Source of the DNA: Sphingobacteriaceae bacterium
GTDB lineage: Bacteria; Bacteroidota; Bacteroidia; B-17B0; Aurantibacillaceae
Assembly: GCA_947453445.1 (NCBI GenBank)
Contig: CANGGP010000026.1
Span: 1-41,672 of the forward strand
DNA: 41,672 nt
Direction: 5' to 3'
Shown here: positions 8,810 to 33,116 of the stretch, in pieces
Numbering within the stretch: the stretch's first letter is position 1
How the letters are laid out: every line of letters begins with the position of its first letter
Position numbers and translations under genes: made by a program
The notes under the pieces: generated by a model
Seen by the model: the letters and a program-made list of their open reading frames with translations, nothing else
Told to the model about the DNA's origin: nothing
The model's database searches: none

Positions 8810-8813
8810 CGAA

Positions 8814-12342: not shown

Positions 12343-13272
12343 ATGAATAAAAAAATTACCATCATCGTTCCCATATATAATTCATCGGCTTTTATGCAAA
12401 ATTTGCTGGAAGCCATTGATGAACAAAAAAAATTATCAAATTGGAATTTGGAATTGATTTTAATCGATGACGGCAGTCGCGATAACAGCTACAAGAAAAT
12501 TGTGGAGCTGGCTGCTATTTATCCCTACATCAAAGGCATTAAATTGGCAAGAAATTTCGGACATCAAATTGCGGTAAAAACCGGTTTAGCGCATTCCACC
12601 GGCGATTATGTGGCCATTATCGATGATGATTTGCAAGATCCGCCTTCTTTATTGCCGGGCTTTTTTGAGCATCTCGACAAAGGTTATGATGTGGCTTACG
12701 GTGTGCGTAAAAAGCGCAAGGAGTCATTGATTAAACGTGTTAGCTACAACAGCTTTTACCGCATTTTAAAACAATTAAGCGATACCGATATTCCTTTAGA
12801 TAGCGGCGATTTTTGCGTGATGACGAAGCAAGTGGTCGACAACATGCTAAAGTTGCAAGAAAAAAATCCCTTTTTACGCGGCATTCGCGCATGGGTTGGC
12901 TTTAAACAAATTGGGGTAGAGTACGAGCGTCACGCGCGTTTGGCGGGCGAATCGGGATATACCTTGAAAAAATTATTAAAGATTGCCATGGATGGCATCT
13001 TTTCATTTTCTTCAGTGCCCATTCGTGTCATCACCATCCTCGGGGTATTGGGATTAAGTTTTGCCTTGGTGTACTCAGCCATCACCGTGTATGGTTATTT
13101 TTTCAGCGGTATTCCCGTTAAAGGTTTTGCCACATTATCAATTTTAATTTCCTTCTTCAGCTCATTAATCCTCATTTGTTTGGGCATCATCGGCGAATAC
13201 ATTGTACGCATTTACGATGAAGTGCGTAACCGTCCTTATACCGTAATCGATCAAACCATTAATATTCAATGA
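12343..13272 (+). CDS. Polyprenyl-phosphate glycosyltransferase (GtrB/DPM1-like GT2)
   Basis: 309 residues. The N-terminal GT2 domain has ITIIVPIYNSSAF, LILIDDGSRDNS and the DDDLQDPPSLLPG motif that is highly characteristic of dolichol/undecaprenyl-phosphate sugar transferases. Two C-terminal membrane helices (about 230-255 and 265-290) follow, as in GtrB. It is expected to load a hexose from a nucleotide sugar onto undecaprenyl phosphate at the inner membrane. The lipid-linked sugar would be the donor for the GT39-like protein two genes downstream. It overlaps the next gene by four bases. Confidence 0.9.
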   Translation: MNKKITIIVPIYNSSAFMQNLLEAIDEQKKLSNWNLELILIDDGSRDNSYKKIVELAAIYPYIKGIKLARNFGHQIAVKTGLAHSTGDYVAIIDDDLQDPPSLLPGFFEHLDKGYDVAYGVRKKRKESLIKRVSYNSFYRILKQLSDTDIPLDSGDFCVMTKQVVDNMLKLQEKNPFLRGIRAWVGFKQIGVEYERHARLAGESGYTLKKLLKIAMDGIFSFSSVPIRVITILGVLGLSFALVYSAITVYGYFFSGIPVKGFATLSILISFFSSLILICLGIIGEYIVRIYDEVRNRPYTVIDQTINIQ

Positions 13273-14195
13273 TGAAAATAGCCATAGTTGGATCGAATGG
13301 TTTTATTGCAAAACACTTGGCCTCTGCACTTTCTAAAGTAGCAAATACCGAATTGTTTCTTTTTGGCCGCAGTCAAAGCAATTTATCAGGCATTGATGCA
13401 ACTTATAAGCTTATTGATTTAAATCAACCCGAATCCTTTATGCATGATTTTAAAGGCATCGATTTGGTTTATTATTTGAGTTCCGACAGCATTCCATCAA
13501 GCTCATGGCACAATCCATACAAAGAGGTAGAACAAAATTTGTTGCCTTTTTTAAATTTTATGGAAGTGGCCGCCAAACAAAACATTCACAAGGTGGCCTT
13601 TGTATCGAGCGCCGGCACAGTATACGGCACCACACAAGGTAAGGTGGATGAATCTTCTGCCACCAAGCCCTTTTCGCCTTATGGCATCATGAAACTGCAC
13701 ATGGAGCACATGTTGAATTATTACAAAACCAAATACAATATTCAATTTGATATTTATCGGGTGTCGAATGTATACGGCGAAGGTCAAAACACGGCAAAGG
13801 GATTGGGCATTATCAATACTTTTTTAGAGCATATTTTGCATCACCAACAAGTGAAGGTGTTTGGTGATGGTAAAATTACACGCAACTATATTTATGTGAA
13901 GGATGTGGCACAATTAATGCTGCATTCCATTAATAATACCGCTACTTCAGATATTTTTAATGTGTCTTCCGATAATACTTATTCAATTAATGATTTAATC
14001 GACATCATGAAAAAAGTGGTGCATGAAGATTTTAAAGTGCATTACGAGTCAAGTCGTCAAAGCGACAATGCCTTTATTGATTTGGACCATTCGAAAATAT
14101 CGACGCTGCACCCCGAATTTAAATTCACATCAATAGAGGAGGGGATAAGCAAAACCTACAACTACATTAAATCGCTACAGCACAACATTCAATAA
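13269..14195 (+). CDS. NAD-dependent sugar epimerase/dehydratase (extended SDR, GalE-like)
   Basis: 308 residues. Rossmann motif IVGSNGFIAKHLA at the N-terminus; the catalytic Ser and YxxxK appear in FVSSAGTVYG and SPYGIMKLHMEH. The segments RVSNVYGEGQ and FGDGKITRNYIYVKDVA are typical of UDP-glucose/GlcNAc 4-epimerases. Probably supplies the nucleotide sugar used by the operon's glycosyltransferases (inference from linkage). It starts inside the end of the preceding gene and ends one base before the next. GalE, WbpP-like and related specificities cannot be separated by eye. Confidence 0.85.
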   Translation: MMKIAIVGSNGFIAKHLASALSKVANTELFLFGRSQSNLSGIDATYKLIDLNQPESFMHDFKGIDLVYYLSSDSIPSSSWHNPYKEVEQNLLPFLNFMEVAAKQNIHKVAFVSSAGTVYGTTQGKVDESSATKPFSPYGIMKLHMEHMLNYYKTKYNIQFDIYRVSNVYGEGQNTAKGLGIINTFLEHILHHQQVKVFGDGKITRNYIYVKDVAQLMLHSINNTATSDIFNVSSDNTYSINDLIDIMKKVVHEDFKVHYESSRQSDNAFIDLDHSKISTLHPEFKFTSIEEGISKTYNYIKSLQHNIQ

Positions 14196-14196
14196 T

Positions 14197-15885
14197 ATGG
14201 CAAAAGCACAATCCACCGCAAAAAGCGAATCCATTCAAAAAAACGACAACAGCACTGTATTGGGCAAGTTTTCCTTCAACCAAGAAGAAAAAGTGGCCTA
14301 CGCTATTTTGGCATGTTTAATCTTGCTGGTTATCCTTATTCGTTCTAAATTTTATAACATTCCATTCGAACGTGATGAAGGCGCTTATTCTTATTATGGT
14401 AAATTGTTGTTAGAAGGTAAAATTCCCTACAAAGATTTTTACGAGCAAAAGTTTCCGGGCATTTTTTATTTTTTCGCCACCATCGTTGCCATTTTTGGTG
14501 ATACCGTTAAAGGCATGCACATGGGCTTTATGTATGTGAACATCATCACCATGATTTTTTTATTCATGGCCTCCAAGCGCATGTTCTCTCCTTTGGCCGC
14601 TGTGGTTACTGCCACTACTTTCGCCATTGTATCGATGTGTCCTAATTTAAGCGGTTACACGGTTCAAGGTGAACATGCAGTTGCATTTTTTGTGAGCATT
14701 GGCATCTTCTTGTACACTTATACCTTAACACATCCGGGTTGGAAAACCTATTTGGCAATGGGTTTGGCCATGGGCTGCGCATTTATGACAAAAACCAGCG
14801 GTATGTTTTTGGTGTTATGGGGTGGTTTTGTGATCATCAGCGATTTTACTTTTTCAGGCAAGAAAAAACCAATCAAAGAATTAATCATCCATGCGAGCAT
14901 TTATTCTGTTGGTGTGTTTATCGTGATAGGCTTCACCTTCATGCTCATCATGATGAAGGGTTCGTTTAATGAAATGTTGTTCTGGACCTATGAAATTCCT
15001 AAAAAATACGTGAATAAAATTCCTTGGAGTGACGGTAAAAAATACTTCGAATACATGTATAATTCCATTACTGCCGAATACAAATTCTTCTGGTACCATG
15101 CCTTATTTGCTTTGGCTGCTTTCTTTTTAAAGAACATTACTTGGCGCCAAAAGTTTTTTGCATTGACTTTAATCTTCTTTTCAGGCATCACCATTGTACC
15201 GGGTTATTATTTTTACGGTCACTATTGGATTCAAATTTTGCCCGGTTTATCAATCTTAGCCGGCATGACCTTTTTTGTGGTGAACGACACGTTAAAAAAC
15301 CGATTCAATTTAAAATCTAAAAGTATTCCTTATGTATACCTTGGTCTATTTTTAGTGTTCTCATTATCGCACTTAAATAAAATGAAGGATTATTATTTTA
15401 ATCCAAATTATGAACGCATATTACGCACCGTTTATGGCAACAATCCTTTCCCTGAAGCCATGGGCATTGCCAACTGGATCAATGCCAACACCAAACCCGA
15501 AGACGGCATGGTGGTGATGGGTTCAGAGCCTGAATTGTATTTCTACACCAAGAAAAAATGTCCTTCGCGTCATGCTTATTTTGCAGCCATTGTCGACAAT
15601 GTACCGGAGCACAAACAATGGCAACGTGAGTTTGTGAGTGATGTAGAAAAAGCCAAGCCTAAGTATTTTATTTTCTTCAACCATCAAATTTCTTTGTTTG
15701 TTCAGCCCAACACCGATCAGTATGTGTTTGAATGGTACAACAAATACATCACCGAAAACTATAACCTAATTGGTTTGGTTGATATGGTTGATGGTTATAC
15801 CAGTACTTACGTTTGGCGTGAGCAACTCAATAACTATAAACCGCAAGCGCAAAACAGAGTGTACATTTACGAAAGAAAAAGTTAG
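14197..15885 (+). CDS. Integral membrane glycosyltransferase, GT39/GT83 (PMT/ArnT-like) family
   Basis: 562 residues. A basic cytoplasmic N-terminus precedes the first membrane helix (about 30-48). The first periplasmic loop then carries FERDEGAYSYYGKLLLEGKI and YKDFYEQKFPG, the acidic DE and following pattern of lipid-phosphosugar-dependent transferases. About ten hydrophobic helices follow, then a soluble periplasmic C-terminal region from about residue 400. It should transfer a sugar from an undecaprenyl-phosphate donor (made by the GtrB-like neighbour) onto a lipid, glycan or protein on the periplasmic side. Last gene of the operon, ending 23 bases from the convergent XRE gene. Confidence 0.85.
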   Translation: MAKAQSTAKSESIQKNDNSTVLGKFSFNQEEKVAYAILACLILLVILIRSKFYNIPFERDEGAYSYYGKLLLEGKIPYKDFYEQKFPGIFYFFATIVAIFGDTVKGMHMGFMYVNIITMIFLFMASKRMFSPLAAVVTATTFAIVSMCPNLSGYTVQGEHAVAFFVSIGIFLYTYTLTHPGWKTYLAMGLAMGCAFMTKTSGMFLVLWGGFVIISDFTFSGKKKPIKELIIHASIYSVGVFIVIGFTFMLIMMKGSFNEMLFWTYEIPKKYVNKIPWSDGKKYFEYMYNSITAEYKFFWYHALFALAAFFLKNITWRQKFFALTLIFFSGITIVPGYYFYGHYWIQILPGLSILAGMTFFVVNDTLKNRFNLKSKSIPYVYLGLFLVFSLSHLNKMKDYYFNPNYERILRTVYGNNPFPEAMGIANWINANTKPEDGMVVMGSEPELYFYTKKKCPSRHAYFAAIVDNVPEHKQWQREFVSDVEKAKPKYFIFFNHQISLFVQPNTDQYVFEWYNKYITENYNLIGLVDMVDGYTSTYVWREQLNNYKPQAQNRVYIYERKS

Positions 15886-21435: not shown

Positions 21436-21837
21436 ATGAAAAACCTCATTGTTATATTTCTTTTCTTTTTCTCTTGTTTTTCTTTTGCCCAATCGCTGAG
21501 CGGCACCAATTGGATGATGACCAGTATTGACAATTTAGAAACAGCTAAAAGCACTCAAATAACCAATAGCATCAAGGCTTATTTGGTGTTTGAATCTGAT
21601 TCGGCATACAGTGGTCGCTTTTGCAACACCTACTCAGGCAGGGTGAGAACAAATGCAGCACGCCAAATGAAATTAACCGTTCCTATTGCCACCAAATTAT
21701 CTTGTTTGGGGATTGATAAATATGAAAAGGAACTATTCGATTTATTGCCTAAAGTAACCAAATACCGCATCGAAGAGGGGTATTTGTACCTTTTTACCAT
21801 CAACCGTAAACGCATTACTTTTAAAGCCGAAAAATAA
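21436..21837 (+). CDS. Exported META-domain protein, first of a tandem pair
   Basis: 133 residues: a signal peptide (about 1-19, ends FSFAQ) then one META/HslJ-like domain. Family landmarks are SLSGTNWMMTSIDNLE, LVFESDSAYSGRFCNTYSG (the GCN.f.G segment, here FCN) and PIATKLSC (the T.maC segment). The domain ends with YLYLFTINRKRITF. Two Cys (in RFCN and KLSC) could form a disulfide. Its TAA overlaps the ATG of the next gene (TAATG). It resembles the downstream protein along its whole length, indicating local duplication. Molecular role unknown. Confidence 0.78.
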   Translation: MKNLIVIFLFFFSCFSFAQSLSGTNWMMTSIDNLETAKSTQITNSIKAYLVFESDSAYSGRFCNTYSGRVRTNAARQMKLTVPIATKLSCLGIDKYEKELFDLLPKVTKYRIEEGYLYLFTINRKRITFKAEK

Positions 21838-22256
21838 TGACAATGCTTAAACCCAAAAGCCATTGTATTTTATTCCTTTTTCTGTTCAATTTTACTTTTA
21901 TTCAAGCACAGCAGTTATCCGGACCCAGATGGATACTAATGAGCATTGATAATTTGGAAACAGGCGTGGTAAAGGTGATTGGTGAGCATGTACGCGCCGA
22001 ATTGTGGTTCGAAGGCGACAGTGTTTATAAAGGCCAATTTTGTAATCCGTATCAGGGAAAAATAAAAGTGAATCAAGATTTTACTTGTCAATTATCAACG
22101 CCTATTACAGGTAAACGAAAATGTATGGGGTTTTCGGATGTTGAAACAGACTTGTTTAAACTTTATAATTTGGTGAATAAGTATAAAATGAAAGGGCAAC
22201 TCCTTTATTTATTCACAAGCGATAAAAAGCGATTGGTGTTTAAATCAGAGCCATAA
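21837..22256 (+). CDS. Exported META-domain protein, second of a tandem pair
   Basis: 139 residues. A signal peptide (about 1-24, ends FIQAQ) precedes QLSGPRWILMSIDNLETG, a FEGDSVYKGQFCNPYQGKI segment, PITGKRKCMG and LLYLFTSDKKRLVF. These align block for block with the upstream gene, so the two are tandem paralogues. Translation is probably coupled through the TAATG overlap; the third codon is also ATG and could be the true start. The gene ends seven bases from the convergent LytTR regulator gene. I see no terminator between them. Confidence 0.78.
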   Translation: MTMLKPKSHCILFLFLFNFTFIQAQQLSGPRWILMSIDNLETGVVKVIGEHVRAELWFEGDSVYKGQFCNPYQGKIKVNQDFTCQLSTPITGKRKCMGFSDVETDLFKLYNLVNKYKMKGQLLYLFTSDKKRLVFKSEP

Positions 22257-22263: not shown

Positions 22264-22962
22264 TTATTCCTTTGTTAATTTTTTCAAAGCCTGTTCTTCA
22301 TAACTCGCGCCAATAGGCAGCTCCTTGCCGTTTATGTATACAAATTTGCCTCTAATTTTCTCAACGTGCTTGTTGGCTACAATATAAGAACGGTGGATGC
22401 GCACAAATTCATTGGATGGCAATTTTTCAAGTAAATTTTTCATGGTCATACGGGCTACCAAATGTTTTTGATTCTCGAGGTGAATTTTTAAATAATCATC
22501 CAAACCTTCCACATAAATAATGCCCGCAACAGGCACTTTAATTAAACTGAAATCGGCACGAATAAATAAATGTTTTTGATCGTTGTTTAAATTGCCTTGG
22601 TTATGGAGCAACAATAAATCGTGCGCTTTTTTAACGGCTTGTTTAAAGCGGTCGAACGTAAAAGGTTTCACCAAATAATCAACGGCATTTAAATTAAATC
22701 CTTCTACAGCATAATCAGCACGAGAAGTTATAAAAATTACCATGGTGTCTTGTTTCAAATTTTTATACAAGTCAATGCCGTTCATTTCAGGCATGTCGAT
22801 GTCTAAAAAAATTAAATCTGTTGGAAATTTTTCCAGGTAACGCAAACCTTCTTTACTGCTAGAAAATGTTTTTTCAAGTTTTAGAAAATCGATTTCTTTC
22901 GAAAAGTTTTCAATCACTTTGGTAGCAATGCTTTCGTCGTCGATGGCGATGGCTTTTATCAT
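22264..22962 (-). CDS. LytTR-family response regulator (second in the operon)
   Basis: 232 residues. A receiver domain (about 1-118) has the acidic pocket (IAIDDE), phospho-acceptor Asp in LIFLDIDMPEMNG, Thr/Ser in VIFITSRADYA and Lys in YLVKPF. A LytTR DNA-binding domain follows (about 135-230: IYVEGLDDYLKIHLENQK, FVRIHRSYIVANKHVEKI). It is the last gene of the ten-gene minus-strand unit, three bases after the barrel protein. It is a clear paralogue of the regulator at 31800-32489; no cognate LytS-type kinase is adjacent. It may regulate the operon or respond to the product of its enzymes (inference). Confidence 0.92.
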   Translation of the reverse strand: MIKAIAIDDESIATKVIENFSKEIDFLKLEKTFSSSKEGLRYLEKFPTDLIFLDIDMPEMNGIDLYKNLKQDTMVIFITSRADYAVEGFNLNAVDYLVKPFTFDRFKQAVKKAHDLLLLHNQGNLNNDQKHLFIRADFSLIKVPVAGIIYVEGLDDYLKIHLENQKHLVARMTMKNLLEKLPSNEFVRIHRSYIVANKHVEKIRGKFVYINGKELPIGASYEEQALKKLTKE

Positions 22963-22965
22963 GGT

Positions 22966-24225
22966 TTAAAAATTAAATTTTGTTCCTAATAAAAAAAGAT
23001 GATAGTTGTAATATGTTTTGTCGTTTAAATGAAATTTCTTTTCAAAAAGATAGCTGCCGTAAATACAAAAGTTTGGGTTGACTTGGTAAGCGGGTGATAT
23101 GGTGTATCGTTCACCGGTATAATCAATTGAATTGTTGAACAGTAATCCGGTTTGTTCTATAATGTTTACGTTTCGGTTGTGGAAATAAGACAATTGTAAA
23201 TAACAGTTTTTAAATAAGCGTGCATTTAAATTGGGTGAAAACGCAGTATGAAATTTTTGCGTTTGCGTATAGGTATAGGCAAAAGCTTGAAGCCCAAATT
23301 GCAAATTGTTGTTGCTGAAAGGATAAATAACAAAACCGGCATTCAGCATTTGTAAATTGGTGGTGTCTAACTTGGTGATGGTTGCACCTATGTTTAAATC
23401 AATTTTATCGCTTTGTTTAACTAGGTTTGCCGAAGCAATGAATTCATGGTTTTTTTGTGCAGGCAAAGTAATAGTTGTATAAGATATGCCGTTGGCAGGA
23501 ATACTTAATAAAGTTTGGGTGAGGGGAGGAGGCCGATGGGTAAATCCGGGTGGTTCGTATACAAGATAATTTTTTGGCTCCACATTACTGAAAACATAAT
23601 GTGCGCCTACTGAAAGTTTAAAATTGCCTTTTAAAGCAATGGTGTAACGCAAATAATATTGAAATTGCTGTACATTGTATCGCTCTTCATTTTGCAGATA
23701 AGTGTTTAAGCTGTGCATCAAGCCGGCTTGTTTGCCCAAACCGTGTATGAGCGTTATTCCGTTTAAAAATGCCAGGTTGATGTTTGGTTTGGTTGTTGTT
23801 TTGAAGCCACTTTCAAGGGCAATGGCATTGTATTTGTTATTGAAATTAACATCTTTATTCAAAGCGCCTATTTTTTTTGATTCTTCAAGTCGATTGCTGT
23901 ATAAATAAGCATATTGTAAATAGGCATTGCTAACCGCATCATTGTTGTTAAACCTTTTGGCCTTCTCAAAATGTCGCGCCGCCGCACGGTATTTTCCCAA
24001 TTCATAATTCGCAATGCCGGCCCGCATTCTTAAATAATAATAATCCATTTGCGGACCAATTACTTGTTCGCACAATGATGCCAAGGCCGACCAATTTTTT
24101 TCTTGGTACAGTTGGTAGGTCATGCTGTCAATTTTAGCATACGACGCGCTGTTTTGTGCTTGTATCACAAACATTGGCAGCCATAATAAAACTGTAGCGA
24201 TTATATACTTTTTGCCTTTATACAT
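22966..24225 (-). CDS. TPR plus outer-membrane beta-barrel-like protein
   Basis: 419 residues. A signal peptide (about 1-23, ends VIQAQ) is followed by two or three TPR-like helical pairs (about 30-130: RMRAGIANYELGKYRAAARH, AVSNAYLQYAYLYSNRLEES). The remaining 280 residues alternate hydrophobic and polar residues, rich in Tyr, Phe and Asn, and end in LFLLGTKFNF with a terminal Phe. That is what an outer-membrane barrel of about 12-14 strands looks like. The gene starts inside the 3' end of the transporter/M23 gene (25-base overlap), so the two are translationally linked. It could provide the outer-membrane part of the same export or import route (inference). Confidence 0.7.
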   Translation of the reverse strand: MYKGKKYIIATVLLWLPMFVIQAQNSASYAKIDSMTYQLYQEKNWSALASLCEQVIGPQMDYYYLRMRAGIANYELGKYRAAARHFEKAKRFNNNDAVSNAYLQYAYLYSNRLEESKKIGALNKDVNFNNKYNAIALESGFKTTTKPNINLAFLNGITLIHGLGKQAGLMHSLNTYLQNEERYNVQQFQYYLRYTIALKGNFKLSVGAHYVFSNVEPKNYLVYEPPGFTHRPPPLTQTLLSIPANGISYTTITLPAQKNHEFIASANLVKQSDKIDLNIGATITKLDTTNLQMLNAGFVIYPFSNNNLQFGLQAFAYTYTQTQKFHTAFSPNLNARLFKNCYLQLSYFHNRNVNIIEQTGLLFNNSIDYTGERYTISPAYQVNPNFCIYGSYLFEKKFHLNDKTYYNYHLFLLGTKFNF

Positions 24226-26351
24226 TTGTTTTGATGCGTGATGCTGATGTGTTGAATCCCTTTTTCGTTAATTTCAATCTCAAAATTATAAATGGCTTTG
24301 CTTTTCAAATTGTTTGATTGATATGTATTTGAAACGATCTTGTAAATTTGTTGGTGGTCGCCGGTTAATTCTTCTTTGACACCACTGGCGAAATAAGGTT
24401 TAGTGTAAATATAAAATGGAGCCAAAAAATCTTGAATGATACCGGCCAATAAATTTTGATTTGTATCTATGGCCAATGCATCAAGCACGGTTAATTTGGG
24501 ATAATTTGATAAAAGTATTTTTTGTGCCGATAAATAGAACAAATACAAGAAACTTTTTTTGTTACCGATAAAAGCGGTGAAATAAAACAATGTTTCATTG
24601 TTAGTAAAATAAGCTGTGGCGCCTGTTTGTTGGCAATATAAATACGATTGGTTGAGCGAATTGGTAAAAACTTCCCAAATTTCAATTGTTGTGATACCAT
24701 CGCTGTCAATTTCAAAACTAAGTTTCATGCCGGGAATAAAATGAAAAGCATTGCGTATGGCGGCATTGGGAAATGGTTTAAACACAATTTGATTCAGTTG
24801 TGGTGATTCAAAGGCATGTAAAGCATAAGCATCCTTTTGTTTTGAAAGGAAATAACTGATTGGATACAGAATGGTTTTTTCACCAATTTTCGCGCTGTTT
24901 TGAATTTGAAAGTGAAGATGGGGCTGAGGCGATCGACCCGAATTACCGCACAAAGCAATTATATCACCCTTTTTCACATAATCTCCTTGCTTTACTTTAA
25001 AGCTGTTCTTTTTAATGTGGCTGATCTTGCTAAACAATAATTCGTCGTGTTTAATCACAATGCTATTACCCCAATTATCGTTTAAATTCACATCACCAAT
25101 ATTGTTGTCGTCAATACCATCTTTCATGTTTACCACGTAACCATCAGCCGGTGCCAATATTGGCAAGCCATAGCAATAATAGTCAGTAACATCACGACCG
25201 TTTCCTTTAAAGGCTTTTTTTAATTCATCCACCACTTCAAAATCCCAAGCATAACGGTAATCGCCTTGGTGTGTGTTTTTACCATCATGTGCCTGCGTCA
25301 CCATCCATTCGCCATAAAATGGTAAATGCAAATGGATATAAGTGTCTTTTTTAAAACGCTCTTTGTAAATATGGTAAGCGTACAAGTTTTTTTCAGGAGA
25401 AAACAATTGGTATTGTACTTGTAAAAAATATTTAAAATAAGTGCGGTTTTGTAACACCGACAAAATCATTAAAACCACAAATGAGAACGACAGCGAATAC
25501 ACCGGCACTTGCAAGGGTTCAACCACACTTTGTAAACTTACTTGAAATACAAAAACGATGGGCGCCAATGCCAAAGCCAATAAATATGAACTGAGCGAAG
25601 GAATTAAAAAGTAACCACACAACGAAACCGATAAAAAGATGTAATTAAATCCGCTTTGATGCACTGATAAAAACAGGGCTTCATGTTGAAAATAAGCCAC
25701 GGTGTAAGCGCCAATTAAAAAGCTAACAAACGAAATACCAAAGGCTATTCTCGAATACAAAAACAAGCCAATGGCTACCAAAATACCGGCAATGCTGCTG
25801 TTTTGAAACAAGGCCATCGACAAGGTTTTTAAATAAGCACCAAACCAAATGGGCAAGTGGTTTGTCAATTTCCCGCTGAATGTTTCACCAATCATCTGTG
25901 ATGTAGGCTGTAAAGGCAAATCGAATGCATGGATATGTCGGATGCAGATGAGCACAATCCACACTGTAATGATAAAAGGAAAACTCAAATAAGGTAATTT
26001 GAATCTGTTTAAAAAACCTGCCATCCAAACCGAAATTAGTAAACACAACACGGCAGCCATGATGATAAAAATGATTGAAGCCGTGCTAATTGGTAAAACC
26101 GCTCCCAAAGCCAAGGCACTTAACAATACATTATAAGTGTAAGCGCCGTTGTTTAAAAAAGTTTGATTGAGTCCTAATACACGCCCTGCGATTAAAGCAA
26201 TCATCACACTTAAAAAGCCGATCAACCCAACAAGCGGATTCATAAAGGTGGCCAATAACAATAATACCGCCAAAGCAATATTTTGGGAAAAAAATATTTG
26301 GCTGTAACTCAATAAACAAGCCTTTAAATATCCTTGCAGTGTTTGTGTCAA
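24201..26351 (-). CDS. Urea-transporter-like membrane domain fused to an M23 peptidase domain
   Basis: 716 residues from a TTG four bases after the preceding stop; the next Met is residue 37, inside the first helices. Residues 1-310 are a two-fold repeated urea transporter (UT) domain of about ten helices. Repeat 1 has SQIFFSQN (Q18), GAYTYNVLL and LPYLSFPF; repeat 2 has MALFQNSSIAG, SGFNYIFLS and VPVYSLSF. Residues 335-500 form an M23/LytM metallopeptidase fold: H361, D370, H435, H445 and PHLHFQIQ (H478, H480), with APADGYV and LCGNSGRSPQ. Residues 500-716 are a beta-rich extension without a recognised family. The pore Gln of repeat 2 looks replaced by Met and both pore Thr by Ser, so the substrate may not be urea. 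Confidence 0.85.
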   Translation of the reverse strand: MTQTLQGYLKACLLSYSQIFFSQNIALAVLLLLATFMNPLVGLIGFLSVMIALIAGRVLGLNQTFLNNGAYTYNVLLSALALGAVLPISTASIIFIIMAAVLCLLISVWMAGFLNRFKLPYLSFPFIITVWIVLICIRHIHAFDLPLQPTSQMIGETFSGKLTNHLPIWFGAYLKTLSMALFQNSSIAGILVAIGLFLYSRIAFGISFVSFLIGAYTVAYFQHEALFLSVHQSGFNYIFLSVSLCGYFLIPSLSSYLLALALAPIVFVFQVSLQSVVEPLQVPVYSLSFSFVVLMILSVLQNRTYFKYFLQVQYQLFSPEKNLYAYHIYKERFKKDTYIHLHLPFYGEWMVTQAHDGKNTHQGDYRYAWDFEVVDELKKAFKGNGRDVTDYYCYGLPILAPADGYVVNMKDGIDDNNIGDVNLNDNWGNSIVIKHDELLFSKISHIKKNSFKVKQGDYVKKGDIIALCGNSGRSPQPHLHFQIQNSAKIGEKTILYPISYFLSKQKDAYALHAFESPQLNQIVFKPFPNAAIRNAFHFIPGMKLSFEIDSDGITTIEIWEVFTNSLNQSYLYCQQTGATAYFTNNETLFYFTAFIGNKKSFLYLFYLSAQKILLSNYPKLTVLDALAIDTNQNLLAGIIQDFLAPFYIYTKPYFASGVKEELTGDHQQIYKIVSNTYQSNNLKSKAIYNFEIEINEKGIQHISITHQNKCIKAKSI

Positions 26352-26355
26352 AATT

Positions 26356-27714
26356 TTACAATTTAAAATTTTTCAAATAAGGCGGTAATATTTCGTTGTG
26401 CTCAATGCTTTCAATGGTTTCGCAACTTCTAATCACGTGTACTTTTTCTTCCATGTCAATCATCACCACAGCAGGTCGAAGTGCAATAAATTGCATCCAC
26501 TGCGTCATATTATAAGCGCCAACCATATGCACCACCACTTGATCATTTCGTTTTAACGGCGGCAAGGTAACATTTTCACGTATCACATCAATGTTCATGC
26601 ATAGTGGGCCGTATAACACGGCATCTTCGGTGTATTGGCTAAAGTCTTGTGCAGGACTGATTTTGTGTTCGTACCAAAAGGCAGTGAATAAAATATTCAC
26701 ACCAAAATCCATTATGGTGGCGCGACGGCCATCCGACAAGCGTTTGTTCGAAAGCACTGTGCCCAGCAAATAGCCGGCTTCATCAATCAGTGCTCTTCCT
26801 GTTTCGAGAATCAACAATGGTAATTCATCTTCAACAAAACCGGCATTTAAAATTGAAGAGCTAATGGCTTCAGCATATTGATCAAAATCGGGAGAGGTGT
26901 CGGCTCCCTGCAAATAAGAACCTTTGAGTGTGTTTTTCGATGCAAAACCACCACCCATATCGATGTATTGGATGTTTTTTTTGTATTTCTTTTTAATGTT
27001 TAAGGCCAAGTCGGATAATTTTTTTGCTGCAATACCATAAGCACTTGGCGCCAACATAAAAGTGCCAATGTGTGCATGTAAACCAAGCAATTCCATTTTG
27101 TCGTTCAACATAATTTTATTGATGGCATCCCAAGCTTGGCCATTTTCATAATTAAAACCAAATCGGTCCCACATCGGGTAAATACCTGTATCCATGTTTA
27201 CGCGTATGGCCACGCGCGGACGAATGTTCAACTCCGTTGCCAATTCAATTAATAAATACAATTCATCCAAATGGTCGATGTGAATCAACGAATTGTTTTG
27301 AATGGCCAAACGTAATTCGGCTTCGGTTTTATCGGGACCGTTGAAAATAATTTTATCGCCGGGCACATTGTTTTTTAATGCTTTGTTGTATTCAAAACCC
27401 GATACCACTTCGGCCCAAGAGCCTTCTTGATGGAAAACATGACATACGGCATTGATGTAATTTGTTTTGTAACTCCAAGCAAATTGTACTTTGGGGTATC
27501 TTGTTTTGAAGGCCCTTTTGGCATCTTTAAATGTTTGACGAATTGTTTTTTCCGACATCACAAACAAAGGCGAACCATGTTTGGTGATTAAGTCCTTTAC
27601 GGCATTGCCGTCGATGTGGGTGCAAGGATTGTACTCGGTTTTGGTGCCGAATTTATTCATGAGTCCAACATTTAAGCGTTGAATCACCGGTCGTTCATAC
27701 TGCAATTTTTTCAT
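26356..27714 (-). CDS. PLP-dependent fold-III decarboxylase (diaminopimelate decarboxylase-like)
   Basis: 452 residues. Alanine-racemase-type barrel: the PLP lysine is K83 in FAWSYKTN, H215 lies in LHAHIGTF, the phosphate-binding Gly-rich loop is DMGGGF (252-257) and LETGRAL (303-309) replaces the usual EPGR. The C-terminal domain has YGPLCMNIDV (C372) where lysA has CESxD, and GAYNMTQW (Y401). The altered substrate loops argue against ordinary meso-DAP decarboxylation. It sits between the ATP-grasp ligase and the transporter, so it probably decarboxylates a free or carrier-bound amino acid made in this pathway (inference). Biosynthetic LysA, carboxynorspermidine decarboxylase and BtrK-like enzymes are the alternatives. 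Confidence 0.85.
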   Translation of the reverse strand: MKKLQYERPVIQRLNVGLMNKFGTKTEYNPCTHIDGNAVKDLITKHGSPLFVMSEKTIRQTFKDAKRAFKTRYPKVQFAWSYKTNYINAVCHVFHQEGSWAEVVSGFEYNKALKNNVPGDKIIFNGPDKTEAELRLAIQNNSLIHIDHLDELYLLIELATELNIRPRVAIRVNMDTGIYPMWDRFGFNYENGQAWDAINKIMLNDKMELLGLHAHIGTFMLAPSAYGIAAKKLSDLALNIKKKYKKNIQYIDMGGGFASKNTLKGSYLQGADTSPDFDQYAEAISSSILNAGFVEDELPLLILETGRALIDEAGYLLGTVLSNKRLSDGRRATIMDFGVNILFTAFWYEHKISPAQDFSQYTEDAVLYGPLCMNIDVIRENVTLPPLKRNDQVVVHMVGAYNMTQWMQFIALRPAVVMIDMEEKVHVIRSCETIESIEHNEILPPYLKNFKL

Positions 27715-27732
27715 AGTTCTTTTTTTCAGTGT

Positions 27733-28782
27733 TTATAATTCACCCATGGTGGCTATTTTTTCGAATTCCTTTAATTCAACAATCATGTCGAATGAATAAC
27801 GAATAAACATTTTGCCTATATCATATTTGGTATATGGTTTTACTTTTTCTCCCAAGGCCATTTTCACTAAGGCTTCGGGATGATTCTGTCCGCAGCCCAC
27901 TGCCAAATAAACCCATGCCGGAAAGCGGGGATTGATTTCGATCAAATAATAATCACCTTTGGCGTTTTTAATGATTTCCAATTCTAAACCGCCTTTCCAC
28001 TTTGTAGATGTGAAAAGTTGTTCGGTCATTTTCATCAAATGTTCATCGTCGATTGAAATACCCGACCATGCTTTGCCTTTGTCGGTAATGTATTGTTTGC
28101 GCATGGGTACCGCCCCAATGGTGTTTCCCATGCCATCCCCAATGGCTGTTACATTTAACTCTTCACCAATAACAAATTCCTGAATGATAATGGGCAAGCC
28201 CCATTTGGCGGCAATTTTATTAAAATAAGTAGCCGCTTGTTCGGGGGTATAAGCCACCGAAGCATCGTAAAATTTACCCTTTACAACCAAGGGATAAGAA
28301 AATTCCTTTTTAAGTGCAGGTATTTCACCCACATTAAAAACCATTTTACTGAAAGGAATTTTAATGCCGTGTTTTTTTCCGAATTCAGGTAGGTTCGCTT
28401 TGTGCCTTTCATCAAATTGGGCCTGACTAGGCATAAAAGTATGGATGTTAAATTCCTTTTTTAGTTTGTCGGCCAGGGTAATGAAATTAAAAAGTTCGGC
28501 ATCGAAATTAGGAATGATAACATCTATTTTTTCTTGCGCATGAATGTATTTTAAGCGTGTTAATAAGCTGGCTTTACCTGCCGATGGCAATGGAATTTGA
28601 TATGTTTTGGAAACCAAATCATGCATGTAAATGCCAGGTTCCATTGATTCGTATGCCAATCCAATGATGCGTACATCAAAATAGGTGCTGTCTTTTAAGG
28701 CCCTAATAACAGGCACTCCCGGACCGGGACTATCAATGGCGTTGAGTCCGGTTACAGCGACAGTTATTTTTTTTCTCTTCAT
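27733..28782 (-). CDS. ATP-grasp ligase
   Basis: 349 residues. The N-terminal Rossmann-like pre-ATP-grasp domain is about 1-110 (VTGLNAIDSPGPGVPVIRAL). The ATP-grasp fold follows: K168 in PLVVKGKFYDAS, the adenine-region IIIQEFVIGEELNVTAIG, and the Mg2+ ligands E269 (GGLELEI) with E282 and N284 (YYLIEINPRFPAW). This fold forms amide or thioester bonds via an acyl phosphate. It most resembles carbamoyl-phosphate-synthase-like single-chain ligases. The position between the PqqD-like gene (32 bases upstream) and the decarboxylase (18 bases downstream) suggests that it couples an amino acid to a small molecule, a peptide or a carrier (inference). Confidence 0.88.
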   Translation of the reverse strand: MKRKKITVAVTGLNAIDSPGPGVPVIRALKDSTYFDVRIIGLAYESMEPGIYMHDLVSKTYQIPLPSAGKASLLTRLKYIHAQEKIDVIIPNFDAELFNFITLADKLKKEFNIHTFMPSQAQFDERHKANLPEFGKKHGIKIPFSKMVFNVGEIPALKKEFSYPLVVKGKFYDASVAYTPEQAATYFNKIAAKWGLPIIIQEFVIGEELNVTAIGDGMGNTIGAVPMRKQYITDKGKAWSGISIDDEHLMKMTEQLFTSTKWKGGLELEIIKNAKGDYYLIEINPRFPAWVYLAVGCGQNHPEALVKMALGEKVKPYTKYDIGKMFIRYSFDMIVELKEFEKIATMGEL

Positions 28783-28814
28783 AAGTTCTCTTTCATTAAA
28801 TGTGGCAATGGCAT

Positions 28815-29072
28815 TTAGTCATTGCTTGTTTCATTTTCATTCAACTGTAATTTTTTAAGCATGTTGATGAAATCATAAATGTCTTTTTCCAATGTGTTGG
28901 CATCGGTTAAATACTCGTTCAAAATGTTTTTCTTAATCAACTCAATGTCTTTGCCTTCCTTTAACATTTTTACAATGCTCAAGCCAATGGGATTGGTGGC
29001 GAATGAATTACCGTTTGAAGGATCGAAAACAAATCCTGTTTCGCTTAATGCTAAATTTTTTTTAAGTTTCAT
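28815..29072 (-). CDS. PqqD-like small protein (RiPP-recognition-element fold)
   Basis: 85 residues. The sequence LALSETGFVFDPSNGNSFAT followed by NPIGLSIVKMLKEG and EKDIYDFINMLKKLQL is the winged-helix PqqD pattern, closest by eye to the PqqD members of HPr-rel-A systems (SxxGFxFdpxxGxsFxxN). In RiPP pathways such domains bind a leader peptide and hand it to the modifying enzyme. No PQQ genes, HprK-like kinase, radical SAM gene or precursor peptide are adjacent, so the partner here is probably the ATP-grasp ligase (inference). It overlaps the kinase gene by 11 bases, firmly tying sensing and biosynthesis into one transcript. Confidence 0.78.
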   Translation of the reverse strand: MKLKKNLALSETGFVFDPSNGNSFATNPIGLSIVKMLKEGKDIELIKKNILNEYLTDANTLEKDIYDFINMLKKLQLNENETSND

Positions 29073-31308
29073 GGTTATGATGCTTTATTTGTTTTTTAAA
29101 AACCTGTAATTCTACAACTGATGCTTCGCAATCGGTTTTTAATTTTGAAAATTTATTTTGGATGCTTAACAGATCTTGTTTTTTTTCGGCCAATTCTTCA
29201 ATGTCGCTTAAAGGTTGCAGTAAAGAAGCAATGCCCATAAAGCCCACTGAAGTTTTCATGCGGTGGGCAATCATGCGAATATTGTCATAATTTTGCTCAT
29301 TGATGGCCTTGGCTATTTCGTTTAAATCGGCAGGATTTTGTTCGGTATAAATGTCAATCATCTCAAAAATAAATTGATTGTTGCCTCTCGATAAATCAAT
29401 TAAATCTTGTGTATTCACCAGTTTACCTTCAGTTGTTGGTTTTTGTATCGCTTCATTGCCTTCAAACTTTATCAATTTGGTTTTAAGTTGTAAGTGTTTG
29501 GCAATGATTTCATACAAATCCTTTTCCATAAAAGGTTTTGAAATATAATCGTCCATGCCCGCATTGATGCACTTTTCTTTTTCAGCGTTTGTAACGTGGG
29601 CAGTCATGGCAATAACAGGTAAATTCAATTTTAGTTGTTTACGAATTAGTTTGGTGGTGTTGTAACCGTCTAAAACAGGCATTTGAATATCCATTAAAAC
29701 CAAATCGTATTTGTTGCCGTTTAATTTCTGAATGGCTTCTTCTCCATTGGAGGCCGAATCAACCAAAAAACCAAAATCACTTAAATACTCGATGGCTAAT
29801 TTTTGATTCAAGGTATTGTCTTCAACCAATAAAATATTTTTATCGCCATGCGCCAATTTCTCATATTCAAATTTGGTGTTTTCTTGGGCAGGACTTGCAT
29901 TTTCAAAAACAAGCGGGAAGCTAAGTGTTACAACAAATTCAGAACCAAAGCCTTCTTTGCTTTTTACATAAATTTCACCATTTTGTAATTCAATCAAATC
30001 TTTCACAATGGCCAAGCCCAAACCGGTGCCGCCAAATTTTCGTGTGGTTTCTTTATTGCCTTGGTTAAACCTTTCAAACACATGTTCAATCTTGTCTTTA
30101 GGAATGCCAATACCGCTGTCCTTTACCCTAAACACAAGGGTTACCAAATTATGTTCAATGTGTTTTACTTCACAATTTAATTCAACCGAACCTTGTTGTG
30201 TAAACTTAATGGCATTGTTAATTAAATTCACCAAAATTTGATTCAATCGTGTAGGGTCGCCAAACACCATGCTTGGCAATATTTTTTCTTTATGTACCGC
30301 AAAGCCGATGTTTTTTTCAAATGCTTTTTGATAAAACATTACTTGGATGGCACTCAACAAATCATGCAGATTAAAATTTATTTTTTCGAGTTGTAATTTC
30401 CCGGCTTCAATTTTCGAGAAATCAAGTATATCGTTGATGATGCTCAATAAATTACTTCCGCTGTTGGTAATCGATTTTAAATACTCACTTTGTTTTTCAT
30501 TCAATGGCGTTTTATCCAAAAGTTTCGAGAAGCCCAAAATCGAATTCATAGGTGTTCTAATTTCATGGCTCATGTTGGCCATAAATTGTTCTTTTGCATT
30601 TGCATTGTCTTCGGCTTGCTGCTTGGCTTTGCGTAATTCGAGCTCCAATTCGTTTCTTAAATTAATATCCCTAAACAAAACCACTAAGCCGGCCATCAAC
30701 ACCAGCACACCGAGTATGATTTCAATAATGCTGCGGGTTCTTGAGGCCCTTAAATACTCTACGCTATTGTCGAGTAGTTTTTTTGTATGGAACGATAAAC
30801 TGATGTTGATTTCATCCAAGGCCATTGAAATCTCGTCAAGCGTGCTGCTTTCAAGTTCATCGTTGCGTGTATTTTTAAATCCTTGAAAATTGGTTTGCTG
30901 ATTTAAATCTTTTAATTGACTAAGTTTTTTGTAGGTAAGTTCTTTTAAATTTTCAAAATATTGTTCCTCCGAGGTGCTATCAAAAAAAGGTTCCATCGAT
31001 TTTAAATCAGTTTTGAGTTCAGATTCTTTAATTTTGAATTGCTCAATGAATTTGGCGTCGCCGGTAATTAAATATCCTTTCTGACTATTGTCGAGTGCAA
31101 TAATTTTACTTTTATATGATTTCATCAATTCCGAAACACGGTAAGCATTGTAAAGCTCAGCGTTGTTTTTCGACATCTTATTGATGTAATAACTCGAATT
31201 GATAGAAATAAAAACAACCAAGCCAATGCTCAAAATGGAGGTGATACTCACAATTAACTTGGTATATATTTTTAATTTTAAATTCATTCCTTTTGTTTGG
31301 TGATACAT
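29062..31308 (-). CDS. CHASE3 hybrid sensor histidine kinase with REC and HPt domains
   Basis: 748 residues. The order is: membrane helix (about 16-37), periplasmic CHASE3-type helical sensor (about 45-180; ALDNSQKGYLITGD), second helix (about 193-212), HisKA with H248 in NMSHEIRTPMNSILGF, and HATPase with N-box NLINNAIKF and DSGIGIP / GGTGLGLAI. A receiver follows (about 488-605; D540 in LVLMDIQMPVLDG), then an HPt domain (about 630-740) with H682 in AHRMKTS. This allows an internal His-Asp-His relay and onward transfer to the REC-only protein encoded just upstream. The ATG overlaps the preceding stop (TAATG); M8 is an alternative start. Confidence 0.92.
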   Translation of the reverse strand: MYHQTKGMNLKLKIYTKLIVSITSILSIGLVVFISINSSYYINKMSKNNAELYNAYRVSELMKSYKSKIIALDNSQKGYLITGDAKFIEQFKIKESELKTDLKSMEPFFDSTSEEQYFENLKELTYKKLSQLKDLNQQTNFQGFKNTRNDELESSTLDEISMALDEINISLSFHTKKLLDNSVEYLRASRTRSIIEIILGVLVLMAGLVVLFRDINLRNELELELRKAKQQAEDNANAKEQFMANMSHEIRTPMNSILGFSKLLDKTPLNEKQSEYLKSITNSGSNLLSIINDILDFSKIEAGKLQLEKINFNLHDLLSAIQVMFYQKAFEKNIGFAVHKEKILPSMVFGDPTRLNQILVNLINNAIKFTQQGSVELNCEVKHIEHNLVTLVFRVKDSGIGIPKDKIEHVFERFNQGNKETTRKFGGTGLGLAIVKDLIELQNGEIYVKSKEGFGSEFVVTLSFPLVFENASPAQENTKFEYEKLAHGDKNILLVEDNTLNQKLAIEYLSDFGFLVDSASNGEEAIQKLNGNKYDLVLMDIQMPVLDGYNTTKLIRKQLKLNLPVIAMTAHVTNAEKEKCINAGMDDYISKPFMEKDLYEIIAKHLQLKTKLIKFEGNEAIQKPTTEGKLVNTQDLIDLSRGNNQFIFEMIDIYTEQNPADLNEIAKAINEQNYDNIRMIAHRMKTSVGFMGIASLLQPLSDIEELAEKKQDLLSIQNKFSKLKTDCEASVVELQVFKKQIKHHNHET

Positions 31309-31685
31309 TAGGCATTGCTTTTAGTGCCAAGCAAGTTAGCCAAAACATTTTTTAAATGCATAAAATCAATGGGTTTAGGAATAAATGCATCGTATTTTAC
31401 TTCAATTTTTTTAAGAAATTCATCCGGATTTTTAACGGCCGACATCACCAATACCTTCGGGAAGTTTTGCGGGTAAATTTTTTTTAATTTTAAGAGTAAG
31501 CCCGGTCCGCTTAACTCAGGCATAAAAATATCGCAAATAATTAAATCAAAACTTTGGTTTTCGTGAATACCTTTTAAAGCATCTTCACCGTTTTTTGCGC
31601 CGGTAACGCTGTATCCCCATTCTAACAATACCATGCCTAATCCGGTTCTTACCAAATAATCATCCTCTATTAATAAAATATTCAT
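31308..31685 (-). CDS. Stand-alone receiver-domain response regulator
   Basis: 125 residues from the ATG at 31685. The frame extends upstream to a TTG at 31748, but those 21 residues precede the natural receiver start MNILLIEDDYLVRTG, so the shorter form is preferred. Receiver landmarks: acidic pair EDD, phospho-acceptor in LIICDIFMPELSGPG, VLVMSAVKNP and FIPKPIDF with the conserved Lys. There is no output domain, so it would act by protein contact or phosphorelay with the hybrid kinase whose ATG overlaps its stop. It follows the upstream LytTR regulator by 114 bases. Confidence 0.88.
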   Translation of the reverse strand: MNILLIEDDYLVRTGLGMVLLEWGYSVTGAKNGEDALKGIHENQSFDLIICDIFMPELSGPGLLLKLKKIYPQNFPKVLVMSAVKNPDEFLKKIEVKYDAFIPKPIDFMHLKNVLANLLGTKSNA

Positions 31686-31799
31686 ACCCGTATTTTTATG
31701 AATTAAAGTTAACCACAATGTATGTGCAAGTTTGGCTTTTTCGTTCAAAAGCCTGAAAATGGGACTGAAAAGTGTAAAATAGCGGTTGGGGAAGTATTG

Positions 31800-32489
31800 T
31801 TAGAGCAGGTTTAATTTCTGCAAGAGTGCGGGTTTTTGTGAGTCGCCCACCGGAATGGCTGTTTGGTAAACGTATACCGTGCCTTCTTCAAGACTGTCGA
31901 TTTTATCCAAAGCAACAATGTATGAACGGTGAATGCGCATGAATTTTGACAAGGGTAGCTCTTTTTCAATGGCACTAAGGGTGTGGTGAATGGTGAATTT
32001 TTTATTGGCGCAAAAAATACTCACATAATCACCCATGGCCTGCACGTATAAAATATCGTCCACTTTTAATTTGGTTGATTTGCCTTTTTCTTTCACGAAA
32101 AAAAAGTCTTTTTCAAAATTTACTTGTTGGTTTGCGCTATCATAAGTTTCCTTCGCACGAAAAATGGCCTTTAAAAATCGGTCTTCTTTAACTGGTTTAA
32201 GTATAAAATCTACCACATTGTATTCAAAGGCTTCGAGGGCGTAGTCGGGTTTAGAGGTAATTAAAATAACAAGTGGGTGATTTGGTTTCGATTTTAAGAA
32301 ATCGAGACCGCTAATTTTAGGCATTTCAACATCCAACAAAATGAGATCTACTTTATGTTGATTGAGGTAATTGCTTGCTTCAATAATGTTTTCGCACTCA
32401 CCAAGCAAGTTTAAAAAATCTAATCCCGTTACCAGATGTTTTAGAACTGTTCTTGCAATTTTATTGTCATCCACAATCAAACAATTCAT
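31800..32489 (-). CDS. LytTR-family response regulator (first in the operon)
   Basis: 229 residues. A receiver domain (CLIVDDNKIAR, phospho-acceptor Asp in LILLDVEMPKISGLDF, VILITSKPDYA, FILKPVK) is followed by a LytTR DNA-binding domain (about 130-228: ILYVQAMGDYVSIFCANK, FMRIHRSYIVALDKIDSL). It lies three bases after the TPR gene, at the promoter-proximal end of the long operon. Its paralogue closes the same operon (22264-22962). Such paired regulators in one unit suggest two inputs or a nested feedback, which is an inference. Confidence 0.92.
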   Translation of the reverse strand: MNCLIVDDNKIARTVLKHLVTGLDFLNLLGECENIIEASNYLNQHKVDLILLDVEMPKISGLDFLKSKPNHPLVILITSKPDYALEAFEYNVVDFILKPVKEDRFLKAIFRAKETYDSANQQVNFEKDFFFVKEKGKSTKLKVDDILYVQAMGDYVSIFCANKKFTIHHTLSAIEKELPLSKFMRIHRSYIVALDKIDSLEEGTVYVYQTAIPVGDSQKPALLQKLNLL

Positions 32490-32492
32490 AAA

Positions 32493-33116
32493 CTACAAGT
32501 CCTTTAAAGCGTTTGTTGCGTCTTCCGATTGTGGATTGTATTCCAGTGCTTTTTCGAATTGTTTTTTTGCTTCTGCAATTCGGTTTTGTGCTTTGTAAAT
32601 TTTGCCTAAAAGTAAATTGCTGTCGTAATCAAAAGGATATAAGCGAATTACTTTTAAAATATAAGTGGTTGCGTTGGCATATTCTTTGCGGTTAAAATAA
32701 ATGCTTGCAGTGCGGTAATTGGCAATCGAATTGTTAGGATCGAGTTTTAATACTTCTAAATAAACAGCCAAAACCGAATTCCAATTGCCCAAAGCCGAAA
32801 GGGGCAATACAAAACCAAAACGCGCCTCTATCGATGATGGTTCAATGGCGACTGCTTTTTTATAATGTGTTTCTGATTTCACATAATCTTTGTTCATATA
32901 ATACAACCAACCCAAACGCAAATTGATTTGATAATTGTCTTGGTTCAAGGCCGTTAATGTAGCAATGGCCTTGGTATAATCGCTGTTGTATTCATAGGCA
33001 TAGCTTTTTGAAAAAGCCACCGATACATTTTGCTGCGACTTTAAACTTGTGGATGAGTAAAGGAAAAAGAATAAAAAAAGACCGAAAAATGATTTGAGAT
33101 TTTGTTTTGTTTTCAT
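32493..33116 (-). CDS. Exported TPR protein, first gene of the ten-gene operon
   Basis: 207 residues with a probable signal peptide (about 1-28, ends SLKSQ) and four to five tetratricopeptide repeats filling the rest: LRLGWLYYMNKDYVKSETHY, SIANYRTASIYFNRKEYANA, LLGKIYKAQNRIAEAKKQFE. TPR solenoids mediate protein contacts; as a periplasmic protein it could be a ligand for the CHASE3 sensor or a partner of the TPR/barrel protein at the other end of the operon (inference). The next gene follows after three bases. The 5' leader (33117-33220) carries the hairpins described separately. Confidence 0.85.
   Translation of the reverse strand: MKTKQNLKSFFGLFLFFFLYSSTSLKSQQNVSVAFSKSYAYEYNSDYTKAIATLTALNQDNYQINLRLGWLYYMNKDYVKSETHYKKAVAIEPSSIEARFGFVLPLSALGNWNSVLAVYLEVLKLDPNNSIANYRTASIYFNRKEYANATTYILKVIRLYPFDYDSNLLLGKIYKAQNRIAEAKKQFEKALEYNPQSEDATNALKDL

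Follow-up and report, generated by a model that had tools for sequence, protein, structure and literature searches.

RiPP recognition elements (RREs; RiPPs being ribosomally synthesized and post-translationally modified peptides) serve to find peptide natural products, with the ligand expected to be a precursor peptide. Among the closest described relatives of the system considered here are lasso-peptide B1 proteins, LppB and PqqD, as covered in the accessible parts of PMC13381572 and PMC12710340. In a 41,672-nucleotide (nt) stretch of DNA from a Sphingobacteriaceae bacterium (contig CANGGP010000026.1; this whole stretch is termed the window), a PqqD-family gene is followed by genes encoding an ATP-grasp ligase, a pyridoxal phosphate (PLP)-dependent decarboxylase and a fusion of a UT-type channel with an M23 peptidase (UT-M23), a gene set that is shown here to be a phylum-wide Bacteroidota cassette. 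Like the described RREs, the PqqD-family protein belongs to PF05402, presents the leader-site Asn, Tyr, Asp and Phe at the same spacing and has a candidate YxxPx[I/L/V] partner; unlike in those systems, this candidate sequence forms the N-terminus of the decarboxylase, and no precursor gene was found in the cluster among open reading frames of 60 or more amino acids.

The butirosin side-chain module BtrI/BtrJ/BtrK, in which BtrJ is an ATP-grasp enzyme, likewise joins a ligase to a same-fold decarboxylase and a small partner, although in the cassette this partner is an RRE rather than an acyl carrier protein. In peptidase-containing ABC exporters of the C39 type, the membrane exporter is fused to a peptidase on its cytosolic side. 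The same idea would apply to UT-M23, but with a UT channel lacking an ATPase and with M23 replacing C39. The channel shares the fold of the urea transporters dvUT and UT-B but differs from both in being fused to M23 and in its pore residues. Finally, the decarboxylase resembles the group comprising FigC/FslC, SbnH, AcsE, MccE and BtrK (PMC7857480, accessible parts), which includes its best solved match and with which it shares a Met beside the catalytic Cys; it differs from FigC in its YxxP tail and at two positions proposed there to contact citrate. No description of the cassette was found in searches of the open-access literature, including the accessible parts of PMC8939145, PMC12710340, PMC13381572, PMC6784204 and PMC7857480.

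The core of the cassette comprises the following features in the window (aa, amino acids).

28815..29072, minus strand: PqqD-family discrete RRE, 85 aa (PF05402, 9.9e-9)
28992-28994, minus strand: PqqD N27, candidate Pro-binding equivalent, by spacing relative to LppB N33
28881-28883, minus strand: PqqD D64, candidate Tyr-binding equivalent, by spacing relative to LppB D70
27733..28782, minus strand: ATP-grasp ligase, 349 aa (ATPgrasp_Ter, 4.5e-9; ATP-grasp_3)
26356..27714, minus strand: fold-III (alanine-racemase fold) PLP decarboxylase, FigC/FslC-like (Orn_Arg_deC_N and Orn_DAP_Arg_deC)
27646..27699, minus strand: decarboxylase tail of predicted RRE-binding type, residues 6-23, YERPVIQRLNVGLMNKFG (motif conservation)
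24201..26351, minus strand: UT-M23 fusion, 716 aa (UT, 1e-47; M23, 1.5e-16)
25455..26324, minus strand: UT channel domain with altered pore (PF03253)
24894..25172, minus strand: M23 metallopeptidase domain, predicted to be cytosolic (catalytic residues and loop charge)

UT-M23 neighborhoods of up to ~22 kb were fetched both for relatives and for a sample of the phylum; score, frame length and neighborhood served to separate UT-M23 from matches to M23 or UT alone. Locus L034 was excluded, as it lies on the same contig as L041, and PqqD genes that the open reading frame (ORF) filter had skipped in this survey were added back (six plus one). The order PqqD, ATP-grasp, decarboxylase and UT-M23, then barrel and/or TPR protein, recurs across families, and the order of the core is kept far beyond chance. 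Excluding the window, the ATP-grasp and decarboxylase genes are found together in 48 loci, where the median gaps are 14 nt between these two genes and 12 nt between the decarboxylase and UT-M23 genes. UT scored above its cut-off in 44 of the 395 genomes of the phylum sample, namely 34 in which it occurs with M23 (as two adjacent ORFs in one, G084) and 10 in which it stands alone. Strong ATP-grasp matches (300 bits or more) were also obtained in 34 of the 395, and the two groups of 34 are the identical set; one weak ATP-grasp match, of 81 bits, was seen in genome G445. Treated as independent draws, this co-occurrence has a p of ~10^-49, a figure to be taken as a guide only, since the genomes are not in fact independent. 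The ATP-grasp gene was further found in 76 of 395 genomes in the class sample and in 7 of 87 in the order sample, while UT-M23, counting full-length matches, was present in 16 of 80 relatives, 10 of which hold the cassette ATP-grasp gene.

These results bear out the claim of an initial annotation of the window that the PqqD, ATP-grasp, decarboxylase and UT-M23 genes belong to one unit, as reflected in their kept order and co-occurrence. That annotation had also tied the regulators of the locus to this unit; enzymes and transporter are indeed conserved together, but the regulators are not conserved with them. The findings suggest that the cassette encodes a pathway, undescribed so far, making a small molecule that is probably exported. 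Given that the ATP-grasp gene occurs in 76 of the class genomes, this metabolite may be common in the class.

Additional proteins were noted at some of these loci. A family of ~280 aa is encoded mostly just upstream of PqqD in 17 loci (many of them among L095-L119), with the one member scanned having a tail of the type IX secretion system (T9SS) type, and a family of ~275 aa is encoded mostly after the TPR gene in 17 loci, with the one member scanned giving a weak Porin_4 match. In genome G074, the cassette is split, with UT-M23 and the TPR/beta-rich protein in L048 and PqqD, ATP-grasp and decarboxylase on another contig (L137).

The N-terminus of the decarboxylase carries a YxxP motif of the kind that RREs bind in precursor leaders. 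Once 12 duplicates had been removed from 124 decarboxylases, the tail [YF]xxPx[ILVM]-x9-K was found in 111 of the 112 distinct sequences, the remaining tail (L193) being unreadable. In these 111 tails, residue 6 is Tyr in 106 and Phe in five, E7 is present in 108, and P9 and I/L/V11 are present in all. K21 (27652-27654) is likewise found in 111 of 111 and G23 in 110; when the pattern was applied without the Lys requirement, K21 was still present in 110 of the 110 tails found. The first 20-odd residues are highly conserved even though the alignments to solved relatives begin, for the 45 listed, at residue 18 or later, and for FigC at residue 34. Tail codons differ synonymously across the 48 loci. 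As a control, the first 75 aa were scanned for [YF]xxPx[ILV], which was found in 48 of 48 decarboxylases vs. 39 of 451 other neighboring ORFs; with x9-K-x-G added, the counts became 47 of 48 vs. 0 of 451. No such tail was seen by eye in the nearest plasmid decarboxylase (Antarctobacter, 29%), nor was [YFW]ExP found in the first 60 residues of the LysA-like ORFs of L002, L125 and L127. An in-frame ATG (M19; 27658-27660) also lies within the tail. Because position 19 is Met in only 80 of 116 sequences, M19 is not a universal start.

The PqqD protein has the size and domain content of a discrete RRE (85 aa, with ~110 aa taken as the upper limit; PF05402, 35.8 bits vs. a cut-off of 23.4) and is the one PqqD above the family cut-off in the draft genome. 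In LppB, the Tyr of a bound YxxP leader receives a hydrogen bond from D70 and the kink at its Pro is held by N33, with Y60 and F74 lining the pockets (PMC13381572). N27, Y54, D64 and F68 of the window protein show the spacing of LppB N33, Y60, D70 and F74, each number being six lower, with equivalence here resting on spacing and not on an alignment with LppB. All 110 PqqD sequences have Asn at position 27, while position 64 is Asp in all 104 pairs with a Tyr tail and in none of the five pairs with a Phe tail, where it is Tyr (four) or His (one). For L040 (truncated) and L095, no PqqD appears in the main table; that of L095 was found in L218 and has Asp. In the Tyr-tail set, 134 decarboxylase columns are conserved to 95% or more, and Tyr6 is the single one of these that all members of the Phe-tail clade have lost. 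Column 64 is the only PqqD column separating the two sets, and none of 12 conserved TPR columns is lost. The joint change of Tyr6 and D64 is, as such, specific.

A candidate leader-type recognition sequence is thus present in the cluster, but on the decarboxylase, and its contact with the RRE is predicted from sequence. With high probability, the RRE docks on the decarboxylase of the pathway rather than on a separate precursor. In an ordinary RiPP pathway, PqqD would instead bind a short precursor, whose gene lies at another site or is too small to be recognized, that is modified by the ATP-grasp enzyme and the decarboxylase, with the tail being mimicry or coincidence. Discrete RREs are indeed found most often in lasso-peptide and PQQ clusters (PMC12710340) and YxxP leaders are their usual ligands (PMC13381572), as far as the accessible text of each extends. 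However, no gene beyond the core was found to recur in all clusters when ORFs of 60 aa or more were compared, shorter ORFs not having been searched systematically; the DNA pattern for YE[R/S]PxI has one match in the draft genome, at 27682-27699 in the decarboxylase gene, although YxxP leaders of other sequence may exist; and Tyr6 and D64 change together. An ordinary RiPP pathway is therefore considered unlikely.

As for the chemistry involved, the closest solved match to the decarboxylase is the N-citrylornithine decarboxylase 7kh2 (209 bits, vs. 142 for the best diaminopimelate (DAP) decarboxylase), with 126 of 397 residues identical to FigC. The protein has both Pfam domains of the alanine-racemase fold, as well as the PLP-binding K83, H215 (in HIG), G254-G256 and C372, all at least 93% conserved. 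It scored 241 bits against NF041039 (N-citrylornithine decarboxylase), below the curated cut-off of 500, and 213 bits against TIGR01048 (LysA), below the cut-off of 297.9. Met373, which together with C372 is at least 93% conserved, replaces an acidic residue of LysA. In FigC, too, Met is the neighbor of the catalytic Cys, whereas the corresponding residue of ornithine, arginine and DAP decarboxylases is acidic and binds the free amine at the distal end, and the group of FigC, SbnH, AcsE, MccE and BtrK acts on amino acids that are already attached, the substrate of BtrK being carrier-bound Glu and that of MccE a peptide conjugate (PMC7857480, in the parts accessible). Based on the FigC-like Met and the resemblance to this group of conjugate decarboxylases, ligation is somewhat more likely than not to come first, with decarboxylation second. 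By eye, the window enzyme has Ile and Gln at the positions of FigC H357 and R387, the proposed citrate contacts (PMC7857480), such that the attached group is probably other than citryl. A rhizoferrin-like siderophore was also considered as product and rejected, with the decarboxylase falling under the FslC cut-off and no NRPS-independent siderophore (NIS) synthetase domain being found among the 30 window ORFs scanned. In the ATP-grasp protein, E267, L268, E269, E282, N284 and R286 are at least 93% conserved (n=48). The guess of the initial annotation that the product is a decarboxylated amino-acid conjugate gains weight here from the closest solved relative, which has N-citrylornithine as its substrate and the same Met beside Cys.

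The substrates of BtrK and MccE also bear on a different role for the tail, in which leader-type docking would present K21 to the ATP-grasp enzyme for loading with an amino acid, the decarboxylase would act on the loaded residue and a peptidase would release the product. The invariance of K21 at fixed spacing and the near-invariance of G23 speak for such processing, yet K-F-G may be plain structure at the edge of the core, and UT-M23 occurs also without the tail (see below); processing of the tail is thus deemed quite unlikely. The same low standing is given to a precursor-free version of RiPP logic, in which leader and modified lysine would be fused to the tailoring enzyme, with the RRE seating the YExPxI tail, the ATP-grasp enzyme loading an amino acid onto K21, the decarboxylase acting on that self-borne residue and a cytosolic peptidase-channel fusion releasing and exporting the small product.

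Six of the 16 UT-M23 relatives, all of the genus of the window organism, are without the cassette ATP-grasp gene and carry a fold-I Orn/Lys/Arg decarboxylase (in L050, OKR_DC_1 at 2.4e-78), and there is no overlap between these six and the 10 genomes of the ATP-grasp type. In five loci where the contig allows, the fold-I gene is divergent from UT-M23 and beside a gene for a different ATP-grasp-like protein, which scored just under the CPSase_L_D2 cut-off in L050, a look-alike in L136 scoring above it. The best matches to the fold-III enzyme in the six genomes reached 25-74 bits, the level of ordinary LysA, so that the enzyme was not found there, and no PF05402 match was obtained at E 0.001 in the four of four tested. 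These exceptions indicate that UT-M23 goes with an ATP-grasp protein and a decarboxylase for amino acids, the latter of either fold, and that PqqD goes with the fold-III enzyme. In L050-L054 (genomes G026, G016, G002, G022 and G027), UT-M23 is divergent from an ORF of 145-162 aa, the fold-I decarboxylase and the ATP-grasp-like protein, and TPR and/or barrel proteins accompany UT-M23 where the locus extends.

The UT part of the fusion scored above the PF03253 cut-off but obtained 94 bits against the urea transporter model TIGR03441, the cut-off of which is 274.6. An AlphaFold model of UT-M23 (mean pLDDT 72) matches dvUT with a TM-score (by target) of 0.85; its matches to M23 enzymes, lysostaphin among them, are weaker. 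Of the dvUT pore residues, E187 is the urea-site Glu, and Q24, T130 and T31 also have roles in the pore. The position of E187 is Met in the window and is other than Glu in at least 53 of 55 members of the family (Ala 29, Leu 11, Gly 5, Ser 4, Met 2, Phe 2), whereas Glu is kept in six of eight stand-alone UTs. At the other positions, 53 of 55 have Ser for T130, 38 of 55 retain Q24 and 35 of 55 have Lys or Arg for T31, the window not being among these last. The UT pore thus appears from its residues to be altered, with the urea-site Glu replaced. In the M23 part, the Zn-binding and catalytic His/Asp set of H361, D370, H445, H478 and H480 is complete in 53 of 53 sequences. In the same 53, K+R per residue is 0.131 in loops assigned to the N-terminal (inside) side vs. 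0.027 outside. As two inverted UT halves place both ends on one side, M23 is predicted to be cytosolic; the ends of UT-B are cytosolic as well. The Cys pair C393/C468 was considered as disulfide proof of a periplasmic M23 and found not to support it, eight of 53 sequences having Cys393 without Cys468.

The family names UT and M23 and the UT fold of the model could also be taken to mean that UT imports urea and that a periplasmic M23 cuts peptidoglycan, with the enzymes being separate housekeeping proteins. Such urea or nitrogen uptake with cell-wall turnover is rendered highly improbable by the loss of the Glu that stand-alone UTs mostly keep, by a charge pattern that puts M23 inside, by the lack of a urease in the run and by the co-occurrence of UT-M23 with the ATP-grasp gene.

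Relatives of the M23 part were seen on plasmids, in six haloarchaeal records and one Thermus record (33-41% identity). The two that were translated, from Haladaptatus (L140, 2363-3289) and Thermus (L141, 2138-3097), have hydrophobic N-termini and resemble the UT-M23 linker plus M23, and the archaeal gene lies close to nitrile hydratase genes. Haloarchaea are not known to have murein.

Together, docking, ligation, decarboxylation and export can be drawn into one mechanism, to which a rough probability of 0.5 is assigned. In the cytosol, the PqqD RRE would bind the leader-like YExPxI tail of the decarboxylase, and docking would hold that enzyme to the ATP-grasp enzyme encoded between the PqqD and decarboxylase genes. 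The ATP-grasp enzyme would ligate an amino acid at its distal group, and the decarboxylase, built like N-citrylornithine decarboxylase for a blocked distal amine, would remove the alpha-carboxylate. The cytosolic M23 domain may then trim or release the product, a role that is put forward tentatively, and the altered UT channel would pass the product to the periplasm, export by UT-M23 being given an even chance. From the periplasm, the TPR and putative barrel proteins would handle the product. The features read directly from the sequences are conservation, co-occurrence, the tail, the paired Tyr/Asp residues, the pore and the charge pattern; of what is presented here, the YxxP tail, the changed pore, the predicted cytosolic M23 and the second pairing of decarboxylase and ATP-grasp, not homologous to the first, go beyond the initial annotation.

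Several observations weigh against this mechanism. Loose YxxP-type strings occur within the folded part of the decarboxylase (residue 46; 44 of 49) and in the ATP-grasp protein (residue 194; 48 of 48). The Phe-tail loci form a single clade (support 0.958), such that the Tyr/Asp change is one event, and this clade also lost one of 71 conserved columns in ATP-grasp and one of 56 in UT-M23. The topology of M23, domains of which family are normally extracytoplasmic, rests on charge and helix count with loop sides assigned by the author. Fold-I genomes keep UT-M23 without the tail and, in the four of four tested, without a PF05402 match, so that M23 is not there solely for the tail, and genome G049 holds the fold-I decarboxylase/ATP-grasp pair without UT-M23. 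The AlphaFold model of the ATP-grasp protein is poor (mean pLDDT 57) and was not used. In G049 (contig C75, L136), genes for a carbon-nitrogen hydrolase and for a class-III aminotransferase precede the fold-I pair, an arrangement like that of amine catabolism.

Were docking on the decarboxylase to hold, some PqqD genes would mark enzyme assemblies and not RiPPs, and the cassette would offer a natural example of leader-type docking outside RiPP pathways. The Tyr/Asp pair makes the docking claim directly testable.

In the window, the core is embedded in a run of 10 consecutive minus-strand ORFs (22264-33116), in the order reported in the initial annotation. The other members are as follows.

32493..33116, minus strand: TPR protein, 207 aa, signal-peptide-like start, head of the run here
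31800..32489, minus strand: REC-LytTR regulator, accessory (Pfam domains)
31308..31748, minus strand: stand-alone REC protein, accessory (Pfam domain)
29062..31308, minus strand: hybrid histidine kinase, accessory (CHASE3-HisKA-HATPase-REC-Hpt, with CHASE3 just under its cut-off)
22966..24225, minus strand: TPR plus beta-rich protein, signal-peptide-like start, putative outer-membrane barrel (weak TPR matches)
22264..22962, minus strand: REC-LytTR regulator, accessory (Pfam domains)

The domain contents previously given for the 10 genes agree with Pfam, the barrel excepted, and the kinase and PqqD genes do overlap, by 11 nt. Instead of four overlaps, ORF coordinates give three (1, 11 and 25 nt); gaps, reported as 3-114 nt, span 3-51 nt by the same coordinates, with the value of 114 nt being reached if REC starts at an internal ATG.

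The kinase and LytTR genes are local additions. Of 48 clusters, 12 have same-strand kinase, REC or LytTR genes like those of the window no more than 4.5-6 kb away, a minimum count because some loci run into a contig end, and the earlier view of sensing and biosynthesis as one unit was not upheld, the regulators lying outside the core. A signal made by the operon and sensed by its own kinase and LytTR regulators would fit the kinase, REC and two LytTR genes within the run, and kinase and LytTR genes are also present in nearer relatives such as L033, L037, L038 and L041; such self-sensing is nonetheless very unlikely given the count of 12 of 48.

The TPR protein heads the run here and in most other clusters follows UT-M23 or the barrel. 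The TPR/beta-rich family also recurs after UT-M23 in other clusters. No barrel family was found by Pfam in the eight members scanned, and TPR matches were weak. A final aromatic residue is present in 12 of 35 putative barrels vs. 49 of 449 background proteins, which offers mild support for the product of 22966..24225 being an outer-membrane barrel.

Promoter-like sites numbered 35 (41.3 in shuffles) and terminator-like sites 18 (11.0 in shuffles; standard deviation 3.9), three of the latter being on the minus strand within genes (28293, 26061 and 22537); such counts give no ground for placing transcript ends. A PADLOC defense search with the five core proteins returned no match. Elsewhere in the window, 1483-4005 encodes a DabA-type inorganic carbon transporter subunit, and 4528-15885 holds sugar-nucleotide and glycosyltransferase genes on both strands, amid which lies a gene for a T9SS-tailed laminin-G protein (9459-11402). 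Two tandem small ORFs, alike by eye, converge on the end of the operon (21436-22256), the first of which encodes a META domain.

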